The notes under the pieces are model-generated. The model was given only the letters and a program-made list of their open reading frames with translations, searched no databases and was not told the origin of the DNA. DNA of 64,000 bases from Tachypleus tridentatus. Its lineage: Eukaryota > Arthropoda > Merostomata > Xiphosura > Limulidae. The DNA lies in assembly GCF_004210375.1 (NCBI RefSeq), contig NW_027467782.1:29739276-29803275 (forward strand), written 5' to 3'. The translations under genes and the position numbers were made by a program. How positions within the stretch are numbered: the stretch's first letter is position 1; every line of letters begins with the position of its first letter. Below are positions 21,995-52,225 of the stretch, piece after piece.

Positions 21995-22950
21995 CCTTTG
22001 CTATTTTACTTCAAGTGTTCCTGACATTCACTCACATAAAGCTTCTTTGCAAGTAACTTTTGATTTGTCAAGTTTTTAGTCATTCATATCTCAAATCTGC
22101 TCAATTGGGTTGAGATTGGGGATCTTTGGGAGGTAATTGTATTATTTGAATGATTTCAGCAGCTTAATTTATAGCTAAGTTATTTCATCGTAGGTTGTAT
22201 GAGCATTTCAGGTCATTATAATCTTGCTAATAGAATGCTTTGCCAGTAACATGCAAACTACAGGGTATTCCCAACTGGATCAATACATCATTGTACTTGT
22301 GCTGGTATTTTATTCCATATCTTTTGCAGATATTTTCTATCACTTCAGCAGAAAAATATTCCTAAATTATCACACTGCTTCTACCATACTTTGTGGCAGG
22401 TTCTATGCATTGAGATAAGTATCTTTCTACTGTCTTCAGCCAGATGTGTTACCTACACTTTGACCCAAATATTTCAAAGTTGGACTCATCCATCCGTAAC
22501 ATCTTTTTCCAATTATTATCAGTCCAATTTTTGTATTTTTCAGCAAAATTAAATCTTCCCAATATTTGGATATCAAAGTAAATGTTTTTTAACTGATACA
22601 CAACCAAATATTCCATTATCAGTGAGTCTTCTAGATTCTGTAGACCTGGACACCTTTCTGTCATTTAATATATGTTCATTTATATCATGTCTGACATCAT
22701 TGACAGTCTTCACTTTGTACTGAAGGCAGAGTAAACAAAGATACTTAACATCAATATCATTGAGTTTATGTTTTCTACCTCTTCCATTCTTATGTTCAGA
22801 TATTCCTGTCTTGGCCTCAAGGGTGTTCTTGACAGTGTTTTGGGAACAATTCAAGTCTGCAGCAATTTGTTGGAGAGCCCAAAGAGAATCACGTAAAGAT
22901 CTTATACAAAGTCTCTGATCTTTTTTTTTGTGGCTGTGGTATGACAACAA
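21995..22950 (-). mobile_element. Tc1-like transposase remnant
   Basis: Minus-strand reading starts with SLRDSLWALQQIAADLNCSQ and NTVKNTLE (two helix-turn-helix regions), passes a linker RGRKHKLND, then in a second frame gives NFAEKYKNWTDNNWKKMLRM and DESNFEIFGSK (catalytic Asp in 'DES.FE.FG.K', about 22,460-22,490). After further shifts the C-terminal block appears as a 'LPPKIPNLNPIEQI'-like stretch near 22,090-22,130, the usual site of the third acidic residue. At least three frame breaks. Typical Tc1 length is about 340 residues, so almost the whole gene is here in decayed form. Confidence 0.8.
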
Positions 22951-23735
22951 AACTTAATATATATTGTTAAACCCTGTTTATTGTTTCTGATGTCCAGGAC
23001 TTGTTTACTTATTCCATCTGATACTGTTGCTGTCAACGTCTCTTTTAATTTGTGATTTTAAACATTTTACAAACTTTCTGTAGATGTAGAAAGCATTTTT
23101 TTATCACTATTTGCATTAGTATTTTGGATATTTAAAGTTGTTAATTCAAGAATGCTGAACAGTTGAGACCTTATTTAAATTAGATATAATTAAGCTATAA
23201 CATGTTATTCCTGAAGTGTGTGACTTATCCACATTATAACAAATACATCAAATATAAGTAAATAAATTTGGAACTAATTATCCTTTATTATTTTTATGTG
23301 GAAAATAGTATTTTACACAATTTATAATATTTTTATTTGAATGTGATATTAAGTATACAAAACTAATATTCAAACACTAAAATAAATACTATATGTGGAA
23401 TACGTAATAGCCTATGAGTTACACTGCTAACTGATATACAATTTTGCTTTTCAAATCAGTTTAATGTTCTCATGCTATTGCTACTTGATAGCACTATGTG
23501 GCCCACCAGTGGTATGTCTACAGACATGCCACTAGAAACCTGGTTTCACTACCAGTGATGGGCAGAGTGCAGTTAGCATCGTATATCATAAGATTGCATT
23601 GTGACAATGCAGATAAACTGTAAAATTATTATGTGTTAACTGCTAAATGCCAAAATGTTATGGAGTAAGGTTATTACTAAGCATATGCTATGTATTATTT
23701 TCAAACAACTCCCATATTACTAAGTAGTGTTTATG
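22951..23735. other. AT-rich non-coding stretch, possible repeat B trace
   Basis: At 23,495-23,575 the words CTAGAAACCTGGTTTCACTA and GTGATGGGCAGAG resemble repeat B on the plus strand; too degenerate for a firm call. The rest holds nothing. Confidence 0.35.
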
Positions 23736-23739
23736 CTGG

Positions 23740-24600
23740 GAAGCTACTGGAAATATTTTTTTTTATTGATGTGTGCCATAGTTCTTCACCAGAGCCTAAA
23801 CCAGTTCCACATAATTTTCGGCCTTGCGACTGCCCAAGATGCCCTAAACCACTGTGACAAAGCTACCCCAATATTTCTTTTCCTTCCTACTGAGCTTCTT
23901 GGGGAATTCTATGCACTCCAGAATCTTCTTCATTTGTGGTCCAACAAAGACACCAGCTTTGACCTTTGCCTCAGACAGCTTAGGGAAGATGTCTGGGAGG
24001 TATTTGAAAACTGCAGACTCTTTATCAAGAGCTGTGACAAATTGTTTCATAAGACCCAATTTTATGTACAATGGTAGAAACAACACCTTCTGGACTTGGC
24101 CTTATGCCTGCCATCAGAGAACTTGATCTGTTTTGGCCAGTGCTTTCTGTTGTAGTGCACTATGGTGTCACTGCTGTCCCAAAGGCATAGATAACAGAGA
24201 AACTTGGTAAAGCCTCCTTGGAGACCCATCAGAAATGCCACCATTTTGAAGTCTCCAATAACATTCCAGCCATACTCATCATACTTCAAGGCTTCTAGCT
24301 AAGTTTTGATGCTGATGTATTCCTCTTTGAGGAGCACTGAATTTTAAAAGGTCTAAAATTTGTATAATATAAAGTCTTAATATTCAAGCAAGCAAAAATT
24401 GTCTTACTTTCTAGAGTTTTTTGCAGTGCTCAAAATGAGGTGCCCAGGGTTTGTCTTGATCTCCAACAAACATGCCAAAATATGCCTTATAGGTTTTACA
24501 CATTTTAGCAGATGCTGTCACAGAGTACTTTTCTGCTCTTGTCTTGAAAAATCAGCCACATACAGGTCTATGTGTTCACTTAGACAGCTAGAACTAAACT
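23740..24600 (-). mobile_element. Decayed copy of a multi-copy invertebrate ORF family (transposon-like, unnamed)
   Basis: I recognise this protein family as one that recurs in many copies in invertebrate genomes, but it has no accepted name I can give. Blocks on the minus strand: HIDLYVADFSRQEQK, then a shift to VTASAKMCKTYKAYFGMFVG and DQDKPWAPHF (24,575-24,390); a gap; YDEYGWNVIGDFKMVAFLMG and FTKFLCYLCLWDS (24,290-24,160); then IKLGLMKQFVTALDKESAVF, FPKLSEAKVKAGVFVGPQMK and KAENYVELV (24,080-23,770). Two in-frame TAG codons and shifts near the end, and the internal gap, show it is not functional. A complete-looking core promoter lies directly upstream. Confidence 0.7.
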
Positions 24601-24742
24601 GAAGTGGTGAGTGGTGAGCCCCTGTATATATATTATTATGAAAAGTTCTAGAAAATTCTACAAGGTTCTTGAAAATTCTTGTAGGTTGGAGAAAATTCTC
24701 TATCAGTTATTCAGCACTGAATCTACCTAGAATGTTCTAGAA
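24597..24742 (-). promoter_or_regulatory. Heat-shock-type promoter: HSE array, TATA box, initiator
   Basis: Read towards the minus-strand ORF. Heat-shock elements: alternating TTC and GAA triplets at exact 5-bp spacing from 24,646 to 24,698 (TTC, GAA, TTC, CAA, TTC, GAA, TTC, GTA, TTG, GAA, TTC; 8 of 11 perfect), plus a distal GAA/TTC/GAA at 24,730-24,742. TATA box TATATATA at 24,625-24,632. Arthropod initiator TCAGTT on the minus strand at 24,602-24,597. Taking the initiator A (24,600) as +1, TATA spans -32 to -25 and the HSEs start at -46. Spacing matches hsp70-type promoters. The ORF family begins within about 20 bp of the inferred start. Confidence 0.75.
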
Positions 24743-25747
24743 AATGGGTAAATTTGAAAATTTCATTACCCAGTTCACAAACCAAAGTTTGAAGAAAAAA
24801 ATATGTATTTTCCATTTATTTTAGGCATAAGAAATTAGGAAATAACACTTTCTGCCCAGGAACATGAAAAAATAAAAATTTTGTTATATAGTGTTAGCTG
24901 TGAAATTTTTTATTGAGATTGGTGCACTAACTAAATGTCAGAATTATTTGTGTTGACTTTTTTAATTTTTGTAATTATTAAATGGATTGATGTTTTACCA
25001 ACAGCAAAGAATAATGCAAGAGGTGTTATTTATAATAAAACATGAGACATTGATCCTTTGTCTGGGTAAGAGATTTAACTTTGTTCACAAGTTCAATGGT
25101 GCAATGTCAAATGTTTTGTACAGCAATCATTAGAAGTAATCTTTGTTGATTAACACATGTGTGTGTGGTGTACTAATTGTTGTTTTATAATACTTTGTTA
25201 AAGAGAAAGAAAATGAAATGAGGAACTTATGAAAAAGTTAAAAAGTATTGTTTTAATGAATGATCCCTATGAAAAATATGATGATAAAACAAACTGGCCA
25301 AGAGTAAGTTTAAAAGTAACATGTACCTCAAGAGCATTTTTCAAAAGAACGATAAAGTGATTTAAAGGTAAACTTTTGCTTAATAGTTAAATACCGGAGA
25401 TAAAAAACTCAGTTTTGGAACACAGCATTAATTAATTAGCAATTATTATTTTATTTTAACTGTATCACTTCAGTAGTTACTTGGTTTTTGTATGTTGGAA
25501 TTTTGTGTAATTTTTTGTACATTCATTAGTTTTTGTTGTTTTTTGAATTTCAGTTGAGTGAGTATGTGATATTTATTTTGTATCACAATTTCTTTCTTTC
25601 TCCTTCAAATTCCTTTATAGAAAAGGAAACTAAGTTACGTGTCATTATTCTGCTGAATTTCCATACAAGTGTTAATTAAATTTTATGTACTACCTACTGA
25701 AATGAGAAACAAGATGTGTTGACAATTTCTGCATATTTCTGCATCCT
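24743..25747. other. AT-rich non-coding stretch
   Basis: Nothing recognised. Confidence 0.45.
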
Positions 25748-25979
25748 TGGCCCGGCATGGCCAAGCGTGTTAAGGCGTGAGACTCATAATCTGAGGGTCG
25801 TGGGTTCACATCCTGGTCGCGCCAAACATGCTCGCCCTTTCAGCTGTGGGGGCGTTATAATGTGATGGTCAAACCTACTATTCATTGGTAAAAGAGTAGC
25901 CCAAGAGTTGGTGATGACTAGCTGCCTTCTCTCTCGCCTTACGCTGCTGAATTCGGGACGGCTAGCATAAATTTCAAGG
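25748..25979 (+). repeat. SINE-A lacking the 3' tail
   Basis: Canonical head TGGCCCGGCATGGCCAAGCG, but box B has drifted (GGTTCACATCC) and the copy ends at GGCTAGCATAAATTTCAAGG; the CTCGAGTAGCTTTG block is deleted. Confidence 0.8.
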
Positions 25980-34770: not shown

Positions 34771-35538
34771 AATATAGACTTGTTCCTAAACGGATAACAG
34801 GAAAGACCAGACCTAACTAATTTATAAAGGATAAAAGTGCGGCTAAAAGCCACATACAAAGTGTCCATAGATTATTCACCCAATTATAATCTTTATAAAT
34901 TTTCTATTATATGAGCTATGTTAAAATGATTTACAGCAATTAATAAATATACGGAGTAGAAAAATCATGGATAACTGCCATAAGTTTCAAAAAGGGAAGA
35001 AGATTCCTTAAACTGTAAAAAGGCTAGGACTTTGTTTCAAAAATAGAGCAATTAAAAGGATAAATGAAAAACAGTTGGTTCATAATAGTAAAACTGTTCG
35101 TGCGTTGTTTTGTTTAATTTCGTAAAAAGTTACTAGAGGGGATTTATTTCATTTATTTGTTAACAAAGATTAGACAATGTGTATTAAGTTAGCTCAACAC
35201 TAGAGGGTACTAACAGTGTATTTTACAACTGAATTGGGATATATATATATATACATAGTGATGTAAACAAAAAAAGCCTCATAGTAGGTATATGTTACAA
35301 ACAACAGAAAATTGGTACAGAGGCAGAAAACGTTTGATAAAAACATTAGTTTCAAATGTCATCAGGAGTTTTTTATTATTTTATGAATAAAATAATTAAC
35401 GAAGAATAAATATTCGATTGTTTCTGGAGTTAAATAACCTCGAGCTTAAACGAATACAACTTATTGTTAACCGGAATTTAAGTTGTTATAAATAACGATA
35501 GAACTTTTACCAAGGCGTTTTCTACTGCATCTACACAC
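34771..35538. other. Presumed intron sequence 3' of the Ror exon
   Basis: No kinase motif or exon seen. TA simple sequence near 35,239-35,252. Confidence 0.4.
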
Positions 35539-35899
35539 CTTCGTAAACTTTACCAAAACAGCTTTCTCCTATAGTCTCTTGGAAAGTGATGCTTTCCCCA
35601 GGGATTTCCATGTCTCGTAGTATCTTCAAGAAGGGATTGTCAGGTGAATTTGGGTAATAGTTTGGGTTAGTAAGGTAACGCTGAGTAATATTACTCAACG
35701 AGCTGGCTGAGATTGCATGTGGAAGTTTCCGTCGACAGCAGTAATATATCCGGCGCCTCCACCAAACGCACACCAAGATGCTGGCAATAAGAACAAGCAC
35801 CACAGTAAACAGGCATCCGTAGAGAACGGACGACTGAGGGTCGACTATTGTGTAGGAGTAAAAGTAGTTGGTAGACATGTTTCCAGGACTTTTGGAATG
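35539..35899 (-). CDS. Ror: Ror receptor tyrosine kinase, exon with transmembrane and start of kinase domain
   Basis: One internal exon of a single-pass receptor tyrosine kinase of the Ror family (Wnt co-receptors). Acceptor TTGTATTTTTATAG precedes CAT TCC AAA; the exon leaves in phase 1 at GAAG|GTGTGT. The 120 residues read: short juxtamembrane ectodomain, a hydrophobic helix (SSVLYGCLFTVVLVLIASIL, about residues 19-39), the stop-transfer cluster WWRRRIYYCCRRK, a cytoplasmic linker, then ITFQETIGESCFGKVYEG, the kinase glycine-rich loop. Loss of the second loop glycine (GESCFG for GxGxxG) is seen in vertebrate ROR1/ROR2 (GECAFG, GEDRFG) but not in MuSK or Nrk, which favours Ror. Frame and both splice sites are clean. 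The frizzled, kringle and remaining kinase exons are not in the window. Confidence 0.75.
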
Positions 35900-37574: not shown

Positions 37575-38097
37575 AGTTTTAAAACTGAATCAACCAGTTT
37601 GACATGTGTACCGCTAAAATCAACCATTTTGACTTGTGTGTCTTATATTTAAAACTGAATCAACCATTTTGACTTGTGTACCGCTAGTCGTATATTTAAA
37701 ACTGAATCAACCATTTTGACATGTGTACCGCTAGTTTTATATTTAAAACTGAATCAACCATTTTGACTTGTGTACCGCTAGTCTTATATTTAAAACTGAA
37801 TCAACCATTTTGACTTGTGTACCGCTAGTCGTATATTTAAAACTGAATCAACCATTTTGACATGTGTACCGCTAGTCTTATATTTAAAACTGAATCAACC
37901 ATTTTGACTTGTGTACCGCTAGTCTTATATTTAAAACTGAATCAACCATTTTGACTTGTGTACCGCTAGTCTTATATTTAAAACTGAATCAACCATTTTG
38001 ACTTGTGTACCGCTAGTCTTATATTTAAAACTGAATCAACCATTTTGACTTGTGTACCGCTAGTCTTATATTTAAAACTGAATCAACCTTTTTGATA
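37575..38097 (+). repeat. 47-bp minisatellite, about 11 units, with higher-order pattern
   Basis: Unit contains AAAACTGAATCAACCATTTT and GACTTGTGTACCGCTAGTCT. Two variable positions (ACTTG/ACATG and CGTATAT/CTTATAT) suggest a three-unit block present twice before a homogeneous run of about four units. First two units are rearranged. Confidence 0.9.
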
Positions 38098-49920: not shown

Positions 49921-50530
49921 TTATCTAGTAGTTAGTTTCTTTAGCTGTTTCTTGATTCATCTAGTAGTTTCTTTAGCTGTTTCTTGATCCATCTAGTAGT
50001 TTCTTGATCCATCTAGTAGTTTCTTTAGCTGTTTCTTGATCCATCTAGTAGTTTCTTTAGCTGTTTCTTGATCCATCTAGTAGTTTCTTTAGCTGTTTCT
50101 TGATCCATCTAGTAGTTTCTTTAGCTGTTTCTTGATCCATCTAGTAGTTTCTTTAGCTGTTTCTTGATCCATCTAGTAGTTTCTTTAGCTGTTTCTTGAT
50201 CCATCTAGTAGTTTCTTTAGCTGTTTCTTGATCCATCTAGTAGTTTCTTTAGCTGTTTCTTGATCCATCTAGTAGTTTCTTTAGCTGTTTCTTGATCCAT
50301 CTAGTAGTTTCTTTAGCTGTTTCTTGATCCATCTAGTAGTTTCTTTAGCTGTTTCTTGATCCATCTAGTAGTTTCTTTAGCTGTTTCTTGATCCATCTAG
50401 TAGTTTCTTTAGCTGTTTCTTGATCCATCTAGTAGTTTCTTTAGCTGTTTCTTGATCCATCTAGTAGTTTCTTAAGCTGGTTCTTGATCCATCTAGTAGT
50501 TTCTTAAGCTGGTTCTTCATTAATCTAGTA
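49921..50530 (+). repeat. 32-bp minisatellite, about 18 units, highly homogeneous
   Basis: Unit CTAGTAGTTTCTTTAGCTGT plus TTCTTGATCCAT. From about 50,014 to 50,462 some 14 units appear identical; two variant units (CTTAAGCTGG) follow and a 20-bp short unit occurs near the start. Confidence 0.92.
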
Positions 50531-51119
50531 GGTTAATATACAGCTTTTATCCACTTCGTAGTTTGACAACGTTTCTTGATCCATCTCGTATATTAACACG
50601 TTCTGTCTGATCCATGTAACAGATTACCTCTTTATCCATCTCATTGCTTGATAACCTGCTTCTTGTCCATATAGCAGATAAAGTATCTCAAGGAAACGAG
50701 CTTGTGCCACCAATTCTATTATTACAATATACATGAAACTGTCGAAAACCATAAAACGCTGTTGACAGATTCGGTCGTTACGCATGAGCTACTAGGAGGG
50801 TGGATAAGGTATTTTCTAATCACTTCTGTCTTTTGATAGGTCTTACAACGTATATGTTTGTAAAATATTCCGTAGAAGTATTAGCAAATTAAAGAGTTGT
50901 TCCACAGGATTTACTCAATAAATTGTGTGGTTTAGATTATATCAGTTTATACTTTTGTATTTATTTATTTATCACTAATATAGCAATCTAAACATCTCTT
51001 ACTCTAATTTTTTACTTTATTGTAACACTTAAAACTTGTTCCAGGAAATGTAGGCAGAACATGACATTTAAATAACAGTTATGTTTTGCTGTCATTTCTA
51101 AAGTGTAGTTTTGGATCGC
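50531..51119. other. Non-coding stretch
   Basis: The first 100 bp contain decayed relatives of the 32-bp unit; otherwise nothing. Confidence 0.4.
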
Positions 51120-51550
51120 TGACAGAGCCTGTGTGAACAGCTATGTATAAGCAGTGCCTGTGTGGTCAGCTACGTATAAGGTGTGCCTGTGTGGTCAGCT
51201 ACGTATAAGGAGTGCCTCTGTGGTCAGCTACGTATAAGCAGTGCCTGTGTGATCAGCTACGTATAAGCAGTGCCTGTGTGACCAGCTACGTATAAGGTGT
51301 GCTTGTGTGACCAGCTACGTATAAGCAGTGCCTGTGTGGTCAGCTACGTATAAGGAGTGCCTCTGTGGTCAGCTACGTATAAGCAGTGCCTGTGTGATCA
51401 GCTACGTATAAGCAGTGCCTGTGTGGTCAGCTACGTATAAGCAGTGCTTGTGTGGTCAGCTACGTATAAGCAGTGCTTGTGTGGTCAGCTACGTATAAGG
51501 AGTGCCTGTGTGGTCAGCTACGTATAAGCAGTGCTTGTGTTTCAGCTATA
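51120..51550 (+). repeat. 29-bp minisatellite, about 15 units, with higher-order pattern
   Basis: Unit CAGCTACGTATAAGCAGTGC plus CTGTGTGGT. Variants (GAGTGCCTCTG, GTGATC, GTGTGC) recur in the same order about five units apart, implying amplification of a ~145-bp block. Every unit carries the palindrome TACGTA. Confidence 0.9.
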
Positions 51551-52225
51551 TATAATATATATAATCCTAACACGTATTCGTTATTCTTAGTTTTACTAAC
51601 CTTACTTTGTCAAGTCACAGAAATCTCGTTTATTAAAATAAAACCTTATTTAAAGCTTACTTAACTTACACAAGTGTCAAGTTATAATTTCACTCAAGTT
51701 ACATAAGTGCCAAATAAACTACTAATTTATGAAAATACTCTTTTTGACCGTTTCTACAACATACAATAATTTATTTTGTTTTTAGTTTGAAATTAAGACA
51801 GGAAGGTAAATTTTATAACACCATTTAGGTTTCATATTTTCATACAACAGAATGTGGTAAGTTCTTTCTATAGTATTATGTGTCGTCATTCTTCACGGAT
51901 TACCGGATCATTCCATTCATCTTGCACGAGTTCTAAGTTTTTCATTTCAAAATAATCTTACTATAATTGTCATGTTTTTTATATATCATACTTCGATTAT
52001 TTGAAAGCCTAATAAAAATTAAAATAACTGAAACTAGTGCAAAGGCATTCAGGTTATACTTAAGTAACTTTTCGAATATTTACGACCTCTTTATGTATGC
52101 AATTTATATTTTGAATGTAATTTCTCTTTGTTTAATTGGAAAATCTCAACCGTATTTAGGTTCAACTGATGAATCAATCTAGTTTACCAGCTTACATAAA
52201 CTAATGAATCCATGAAGAATTTTCT
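51551..52225. other. Non-coding stretch 3' of the PPP1R3-like gene
   Basis: No repeat or exon recognised; would contain that gene's 3' UTR. Confidence 0.4.

Follow-up and report, generated by a model that had tools for sequence, protein, structure and literature searches.

Among the closest described systems are the HSE-bearing Helitrons of Caenorhabditis, which according to the available part of the report hold 61.4% of the heat-shock elements (HSEs) of C. elegans, and whose heat-induced transposase gene has a promoter with HSEs (Garrigues et al., 2019, PMC6927752). In Arabidopsis, transcription of the copia retrotransposon ONSEN was found by experiment to be switched on by the plant heat-shock factor, as set out in the accessible text (Cavrak et al., 2014, PMC3907296), and in Cryptococcus the long terminal repeats (LTRs) of TCN12 and TCN3 are described, in the portion of the report at hand, as having putative HSEs and heat-dependent movement (PMC12810828).

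Here we analyse a promoter-like sequence of the horseshoe crab Tachypleus tridentatus that lies within a window of 64,000 nt (the whole stretch of DNA under study, to which plain coordinates refer). Heat-shock factor (HSF) trimers bind arrays of inverted nGAAn units, and long arrays are bound co-operatively. We argue that the feature is very probably the promoter from which a Chapaev3 DNA transposon would express its transposase under the control of the host HSF, its heat induction being predicted from its layout. Like ONSEN, as far as that element is described in the available text, the carrier would be a mobile element with a switch of the host-HSF type, read here from sequence and established there by experiment.

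METHODS

Window positions 24000–25200 served as the query against the 2.17-Gb genome, in which the window lies on contig C19, and gave 71 matches from 40 scored of 5,743 first-look candidates; 31 dispersed copies were fetched with their flanks, in addition to loci L001–L008. Arrays were scored as chains of 5-bp GAA/TTC units, each perfect unit adding 2 and each one-mismatch unit subtracting 1. For a sample selected by coding sequence, we searched with a middle transposase piece that was read in L031 and not encountered in the open frames when the other copies were translated; the first look yielded 4,515 candidates, 150 matches were scored, and the upstream DNA of about every seventh of these was taken. 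A comparison of constraint at GAA/TTC positions with that at spacer positions was left unused, since the chains had been chosen by those very positions and the comparison is therefore biased.

RESULTS

Layout of the promoter-like sequence

On the minus strand, the main array comprises 11 GAA/TTC units in strict 5-bp register, three of them with one mismatch (in order: AGAAT TTTCT CCAAC CTACA AGAAT TTTCA AGAAC CTTGT AGAAT TTTCT AGAAC), and farther upstream stands a second cluster of TTC GAA TTC (Table 1). The chain score of the main array is 13, as against 6 for the distal cluster and 4 for the next-best places in the window; when the whole 64 kb was dinucleotide-shuffled 200 times the score reached 8 at most, and when the local 430 bp were shuffled 5,000 times it reached 6 at most. 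With the A at 24600 of TCAGTT taken as +1, the TATA box TATATATA lies at −32 to −25 and the HSE array starts at −46. The sequence-only reading had reported both the alternating units with their additional three-unit cluster and this geometry of TATA and initiator; each element can be read directly at its place, and no shuffle attained a score of 13. Judged by these parts, the promoter of the window copy looks intact.

Tandem Repeats Finder sees in the main array a 20-bp period repeated 2.8 times, each repeat spanning four 5-bp units, and copies of the family differ by whole units, so that one might think of a chance minisatellite, a 20-bp repeat that grew by slippage and never had a regulatory role. 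We regard this as extremely unlikely, considering that the repeat unit consists of four alternating GAA/TTC words, that the shuffles fell short of its score, that the array occupies the promoter end only, and that its architecture is common to two unrelated transposon families and to hsp70 (see below).

Table 1. Features of the window copy and its promoter-like region (window coordinates)
Feature	Position	Strand	Basis
Truncated, decayed Chapaev3 DNA transposon copy (putative)	23774..24893	-	BLAST against 31 dispersed copies
TAA adjoining the 5' end, expected half of the target-site duplication	24894..24896	.	Other copies have TWA duplications
5' terminal inverted repeat CACTATATAACAAAAT	24878..24893	-	Family form CACTATGTAACA
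Distal HSE, 3 perfect units	24730..24742	-	Sole cluster remaining in L035, L037 and L038 after loss of the main array
Main HSE array, 11 units, 8 perfect	24646..24698	-	Read on the sequence; family-wide
TATA box at −32 to −25, separated by 13 nt from the final GAA core	24625..24632	-	Same 13-nt gap in intronless hsp70 genes
Initiator TCAGTT, start inferred at 24600	24597..24602	-	Core CACTTCAGTTTAGTTCTAGCTGCCTAAGTGAAC, at most 2 mismatches, at 2,286 places
Point of ~60-bp loss	24563..24565	-	Match split at query 565, alignment and ATG position
Broken transposase remnant, two frames	23847..24298	-	C(2)C (CYLC), H(4)H (HYNRKH), PLYIKLGLMKQF...GPQMKKILEC

Identity of the carrier

Similarity of the dispersed copies to the window begins at position 24896. 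Two-ended copies, which are deletion derivatives, delimit an element of ~1.7 kb (1.44–1.88 kb) with the ends TWA-CACTATGTAACA...TGTTACATAGTG-TWA. Of 31 copies, 28 start with CAC at the 5' end. A 3' match is present in 24 copies besides that of the window, and 16 of these close with GTG, a count in which the best-match search gave a false 3' match at least for L012. The flanking 3-mers are identical in 15 of 25 pairs, which include the false 3' match of the window and the duplicated loci L012/L013, L015/L022 and L023/L025; 14 of the identical pairs are TAA or TTA, preceded by A in 13 cases and followed by T in 12. Several copies have the transposase motifs CYLC (C(2)C), PLHIKLG (LH) and HYNRKH (H(4)H).

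In the accessible part of its description, Chapaev3 is marked by CAC and GTG termini, by TWA duplicated between an A and a T, and by the transposase motifs C(2)C, LH and H(4)H (PMC4079192), and similar motifs are described for the CMC group, again in the text available (PMC12730594). Because the pieces have no significant relative in Pfam, NCBIfam or PDB, the family was named from its ends, duplications and motifs. By these marks the carrier is a Chapaev3 (CMC supergroup) cut-and-paste DNA transposon, and the multi-copy 'ORF' of the sequence-only reading, which had rightly seen a dispersed, transposon-like family, would be a remnant of its transposase. The viral contigs scanned contained no relative of the pieces, and none of the 31 copies translated has an intact transposase frame.

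The window copy and its surroundings

The last ~470 bp of the window copy, including the 3' terminal repeat, are gone, and because its 3' end is lost the copy has no 3' duplication partner. Some 60 bp missing here and in L002–L008 are present in the other copies and include the start codon (ATGGCATCAAGAAGC, ~54 nt past the initiator). In addition, the window copy reads PLYIKLG where the family has PLHIKLG. Since the start codon is lost, the frame broken and the 3' end gone, this copy is presumably unable to make a transposase or to move by itself.

The copy sits inside a larger repeated block (window 22498–25119 and beyond) that recurs on contigs C4, C9 and C19, with ~99% identity over >3 kb in L001–L004 and 97% over at least 2.6 kb in L005–L008. 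A fragment at 22573–22950 on the minus strand gives weak matches to helix-turn-helix domains of Tc1/Tc3 type (E about 1e-3). At ~25750–25880, as well as in L020, L021, L039 and L047, a tRNA-like, SINE-looking repeat (GGCCCGGCATGGCCAAGCG...) lies beside or inside Chapaev3 copies; ARAGORN called no tRNA gene in the window. An ORF at 35531–35878 on the minus strand encodes a putative transmembrane stretch and a glycine loop resembling that of kinases (GESCFGKVYEGV); it gave no Pfam match, and may be likened to a receptor tyrosine kinase. Kinase motifs and Pfam, applied to four short ORFs, revealed no host gene under the promoter of the window copy. The window also has very regular minisatellites at 37640–38095 (47 bp, 97%), 49999–50531 (32 bp, 99%) and 51123–51555 (29 bp, 91%).

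Occurrence of the promoter among copies

Removal of 11 near-duplicates from the 38 copies with a 5' end left 27, which represent 26 insertions (the window copy and L005 being one). The array in these has 3 to 36 units, with a median of 11, and at least 6 units in 24 of the 27, three alternating nGAAn units in 5-bp register being taken as the minimum for an HSF-controlled promoter of hsp70 type; the three copies named in Table 1 have lost the main array and kept the distal three units. The 5' part of L029 contains 36 in-register units, 22 of them perfect, an array longer than any in the hsp70 promoters read. Among 49 promoters (the 38 copies and 11 loci, L040–L050, found via their HSEs, near-duplicate loci included), TATAWA begins 21–34 nt upstream of the initiator A in 41, and the other 8 are without a TATA in range. 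The first codons ATGGCATCA are exact in 23 of the 49, and in 21 of those they stand 53–55 nt downstream of the initiator A.

The initiator-like core, at up to two mismatches, was counted 1,110 + 1,176 times in the genome, and its reversed control 0 times. About every fifth of 100 exact core matches listed on contigs C1–C3 was taken as a sample (n=20), in which the array score was at least 9 in 18 copies and below 9 in 2. Extending this fraction, obtained on exact core matches, to all 2,286 pattern matches, we estimate that the genome may hold ~2,000 arrays. In the coding-selected sample (n=20, one member of a tandem cluster having been swapped for its neighbour), the score was at least 9 in 15 copies and below 9 in 5, and the initiator core was present in 17; in L082 nothing is recognizable. 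Copies that retain more of the coding region thus appear to carry the HSE promoter too. In the 150 matches, open frames that include the middle piece reach 293 aa at most.

The sequence-only reading had proposed that other copies be collected, and had taken a lack of the array or TATA in them as evidence against itself; in most of the copies collected here, array, TATA and initiator are present, which supports its interpretation. The Chapaev3 copies are ~87% identical on average before the array, and conservation within this family, as within the second one described below, is explained by shared ancestry, which alone does not prove selection on the array. At C2:55651000-55736000, six six-unit HSE loci lie within 85 kb, each fetched as, or adjoining, Chapaev3, as if the element had been duplicated together with its surroundings.

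Position of the array within the element

In 20 two-ended copies, an array score of at least 9 was found in the 5' 400 bp of 17, in the 3' 400 bp of none and in the middle of none, and the flanks of these copies scored 4 at most. Between the two ends of four copies, the long part of the inverted similarity stops at position 141–160, and the array starts near 200; further short end-to-end matches, of 26 or 33 bp, occur in two of the four copies aligned.

These data bear on the idea that the array consists of subterminal repeats that resemble HSEs and are bound by the transposase, thereby serving transposition and not transcription. Plant CACTA elements have subterminal repeats that are bound by their transposase. 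Chapaev3 is placed in the same supergroup as CACTA in the available text of PMC4079192, and the array is indeed subterminal, partly tandem with its 20-bp period and variable in length among copies, with the short extra matches between ends as a further point in favour. However, transposase-binding repeats fit poorly with the want of arrays at 3' ends, with an inverted similarity that breaks off before the array, and with an array that ends a few bases from the TATA box, in the same placement as in the unrelated piggyBac element and in hsp70. Since the array is confined to the 5' end and the inverted similarity ends short of it, we read it as part of a promoter, and consider transposase-binding repeats very unlikely.

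Comparison with host hsp70 genes

About nine tandem intronless hsp70 genes, presumably the inducible ones, are located on C8 (C8:132821672–132867561 and 133773603–133793067). Four near-identical promoters of these genes have a distal HSE of 3 units and a proximal HSE of 4 units, and TATAAATA lies 13 nt past the last GAA, precisely the gap of the window copy; the resemblance to hsp70 promoters that had been suggested from the window's own letters therefore extends to the GAA-to-TATA spacing of this genome's intronless hsp70 genes. Of the 18 core-selected copies in which this gap could be measured, 11 have 8 or 13 nt and the other 7 have 2–65 nt, two more copies being without a TATA in range. 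No array was found at L060, an hsp70-like gene with matches split over several exons. Within the C8 cluster, several hsp70 copies appear as two matches that meet near profile position 185, as if the frame changed there, and a copy next to them contains many stops.

The common spacing is what one would expect if the element had taken over its promoter from a heat-shock gene of the host. We hold such a capture to be highly unlikely, given that similarity of the transposon promoters to hsp70 upstream DNA does not go past motif-size matches of 12–20 bp, in a comparison that covered hsp70 among the heat-shock genes.

A second family with a similar design

A genome-wide count of the exact six-unit pattern (GAANNTTC)x3 gives 218 places, some arrays being counted twice in two registers, and its reversed control gives 0; 115 of the 218 are of the subtype GAATATTCNNGAAGCTTCNNGAATATTC, the signature of the second family described here. 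Of the fifty six-unit places listed, 23 belong to the subtype, and the remaining 27 fall at 21 loci. Eleven of these 21 loci, chosen by hand, were fetched and all proved to be Chapaev3, and the five sites fetched from the 23 of the subtype are all copies of one other element, so that 16 of 16 six-unit sites fetched fall within one of two transposons. Four more of the 21 loci lie 45–434 bp from Chapaev3 matches.

The second element starts with TTAA-CACTCCTACGAAAA in all four copies aligned (L053, the fifth, being outside the alignment), and in L052+L061 it ends with the inverse of CACTCCTACGAAAA followed by TTAA. Its protein matches PF13843 (E 9.2e-51) and PDB 6x67 (E 5.6e-6), an entry labelled Transposase which we take to be the piggyBac transposase. 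On these signs the element is a member of the piggyBac family, unrelated to Chapaev3; its loci are L051–L055, L061 and L062 on C1, C2 and C3. The promoter comprises a 9-unit array with 8 perfect units and, 14 nt on, a TATA box, and the transposase ATG follows 39 nt after the first T of the TATA. As transcription would start ~30 nt past the TATA, the leader would be about 10 nt, which is unusually short and leaves either the start point or the start codon uncertain. The array is on the 5' side only in the one copy checked. Our best reading is that piggyBac reached a design similar to that of Chapaev3 independently, and that transposases under HSF control would thus have evolved at least twice.

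Four piggyBac copies are 97–98% identical, and the copies L052+L061 and L051 are out of frame (both halves fetched). Considered with the ~13% divergence of Chapaev3 before the array and its 31 broken translated coding regions, these broken piggyBac copies may mean that the ancestral promoter was real and that all copies are by now silenced or decayed, their arrays being fossils. As history this is compatible with HSF control of the transposase; as an account of the present state we find it rather unlikely, because many promoters are well preserved, the four piggyBac copies are only 2–3% apart, and copies that code for nothing can still be transcribed.

DISCUSSION

The analyses presented here point to HSF control of the Chapaev3 transposase as the explanation of the feature. 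In most copies sampled, the 5' terminal region is ordered as HSE array, TATA box, initiator-like core, a leader of ~54 nt and transposase start codon. Under heat or other protein-damaging stress, trimers of the host HSF may bind the array and switch on the transposase, whereupon the element would be transcribed and move, and the host could not silence this HSF route without impairing its own heat response. Moreover, dead copies, that of the window included, may still use their compact promoters to start transcripts into nearby DNA, or make that DNA heat-responsive, and may soak up (titrate) HSF.

Considering both families together, we lean slightly towards the wider view that Chapaev3 and piggyBac independently evolved promoters of the hsp70 type and between them own nearly all long perfect HSEs, as extrapolated from the sites read, so that the host heat response may be flooded by some two thousand parasite promoters, as against about nine tandem intronless hsp70 genes. 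If this is true, the two families would act as heat-triggered transposases, as an HSF sink and as a source from which new heat-responsive genes could be made. Where transposons become active under stress, a frequent explanation is that their silencing has been lost; in the present case the promoter of the element itself appears to be built for the host's strongest stress switch, and this in two unrelated families. Such a finding would mean that heat-triggered transposition has evolved convergently in elements other than Helitrons and retrotransposons. Given >2,000 recognizable promoters, and hsp70 as an internal control, the system may well offer a handle on whether transposons can dominate a heat response, and equally on whether insertions draw neighbouring genes into it.

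Finally, we compare these families with known systems, in each case within the limits of the text available for the system concerned. By their marks, the Chapaev3 copies are like Merrow, Garfield and Conan (Zhang et al., 2014, PMC4079192), which share the CAC and GTG termini, the TWA duplications set between A and T, and all three transposase motifs; the accessible part of their description makes no mention of a promoter or an HSE. Likewise, the available text on Cryptococcus does not mention HSEs in CMC-type elements (PMC12810828), and the TCN elements of that fungus differ from the present arrays in being retrotransposon LTRs with one or two sites. ONSEN, unlike the present families, is a plant LTR retrotransposon with a heat-responsive LTR. 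Among the open-access papers that our searches listed, covered mostly at the level of titles and the opening of abstracts, we found none that describes a heat-shock promoter in a Chapaev or piggyBac transposon.

The closest likeness is to the Caenorhabditis Helitrons, as far as the available part of their report describes them, for these too are DNA transposons with many HSEs and hold the majority of the HSEs of their genome. Helitrons are rolling-circle elements, whereas we describe two unrelated cut-and-paste families; and the Helitron study has binding and expression data, whereas our families are described from sequence. Set against the Helitrons, the present promoters have a compact layout of array, TATA and initiator at hsp70 spacing. 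The principle of HSE-bearing transposons is thus known, and its occurrence in two transposon classes, their convergence and the hsp70-like compactness of their promoters appear to be new.
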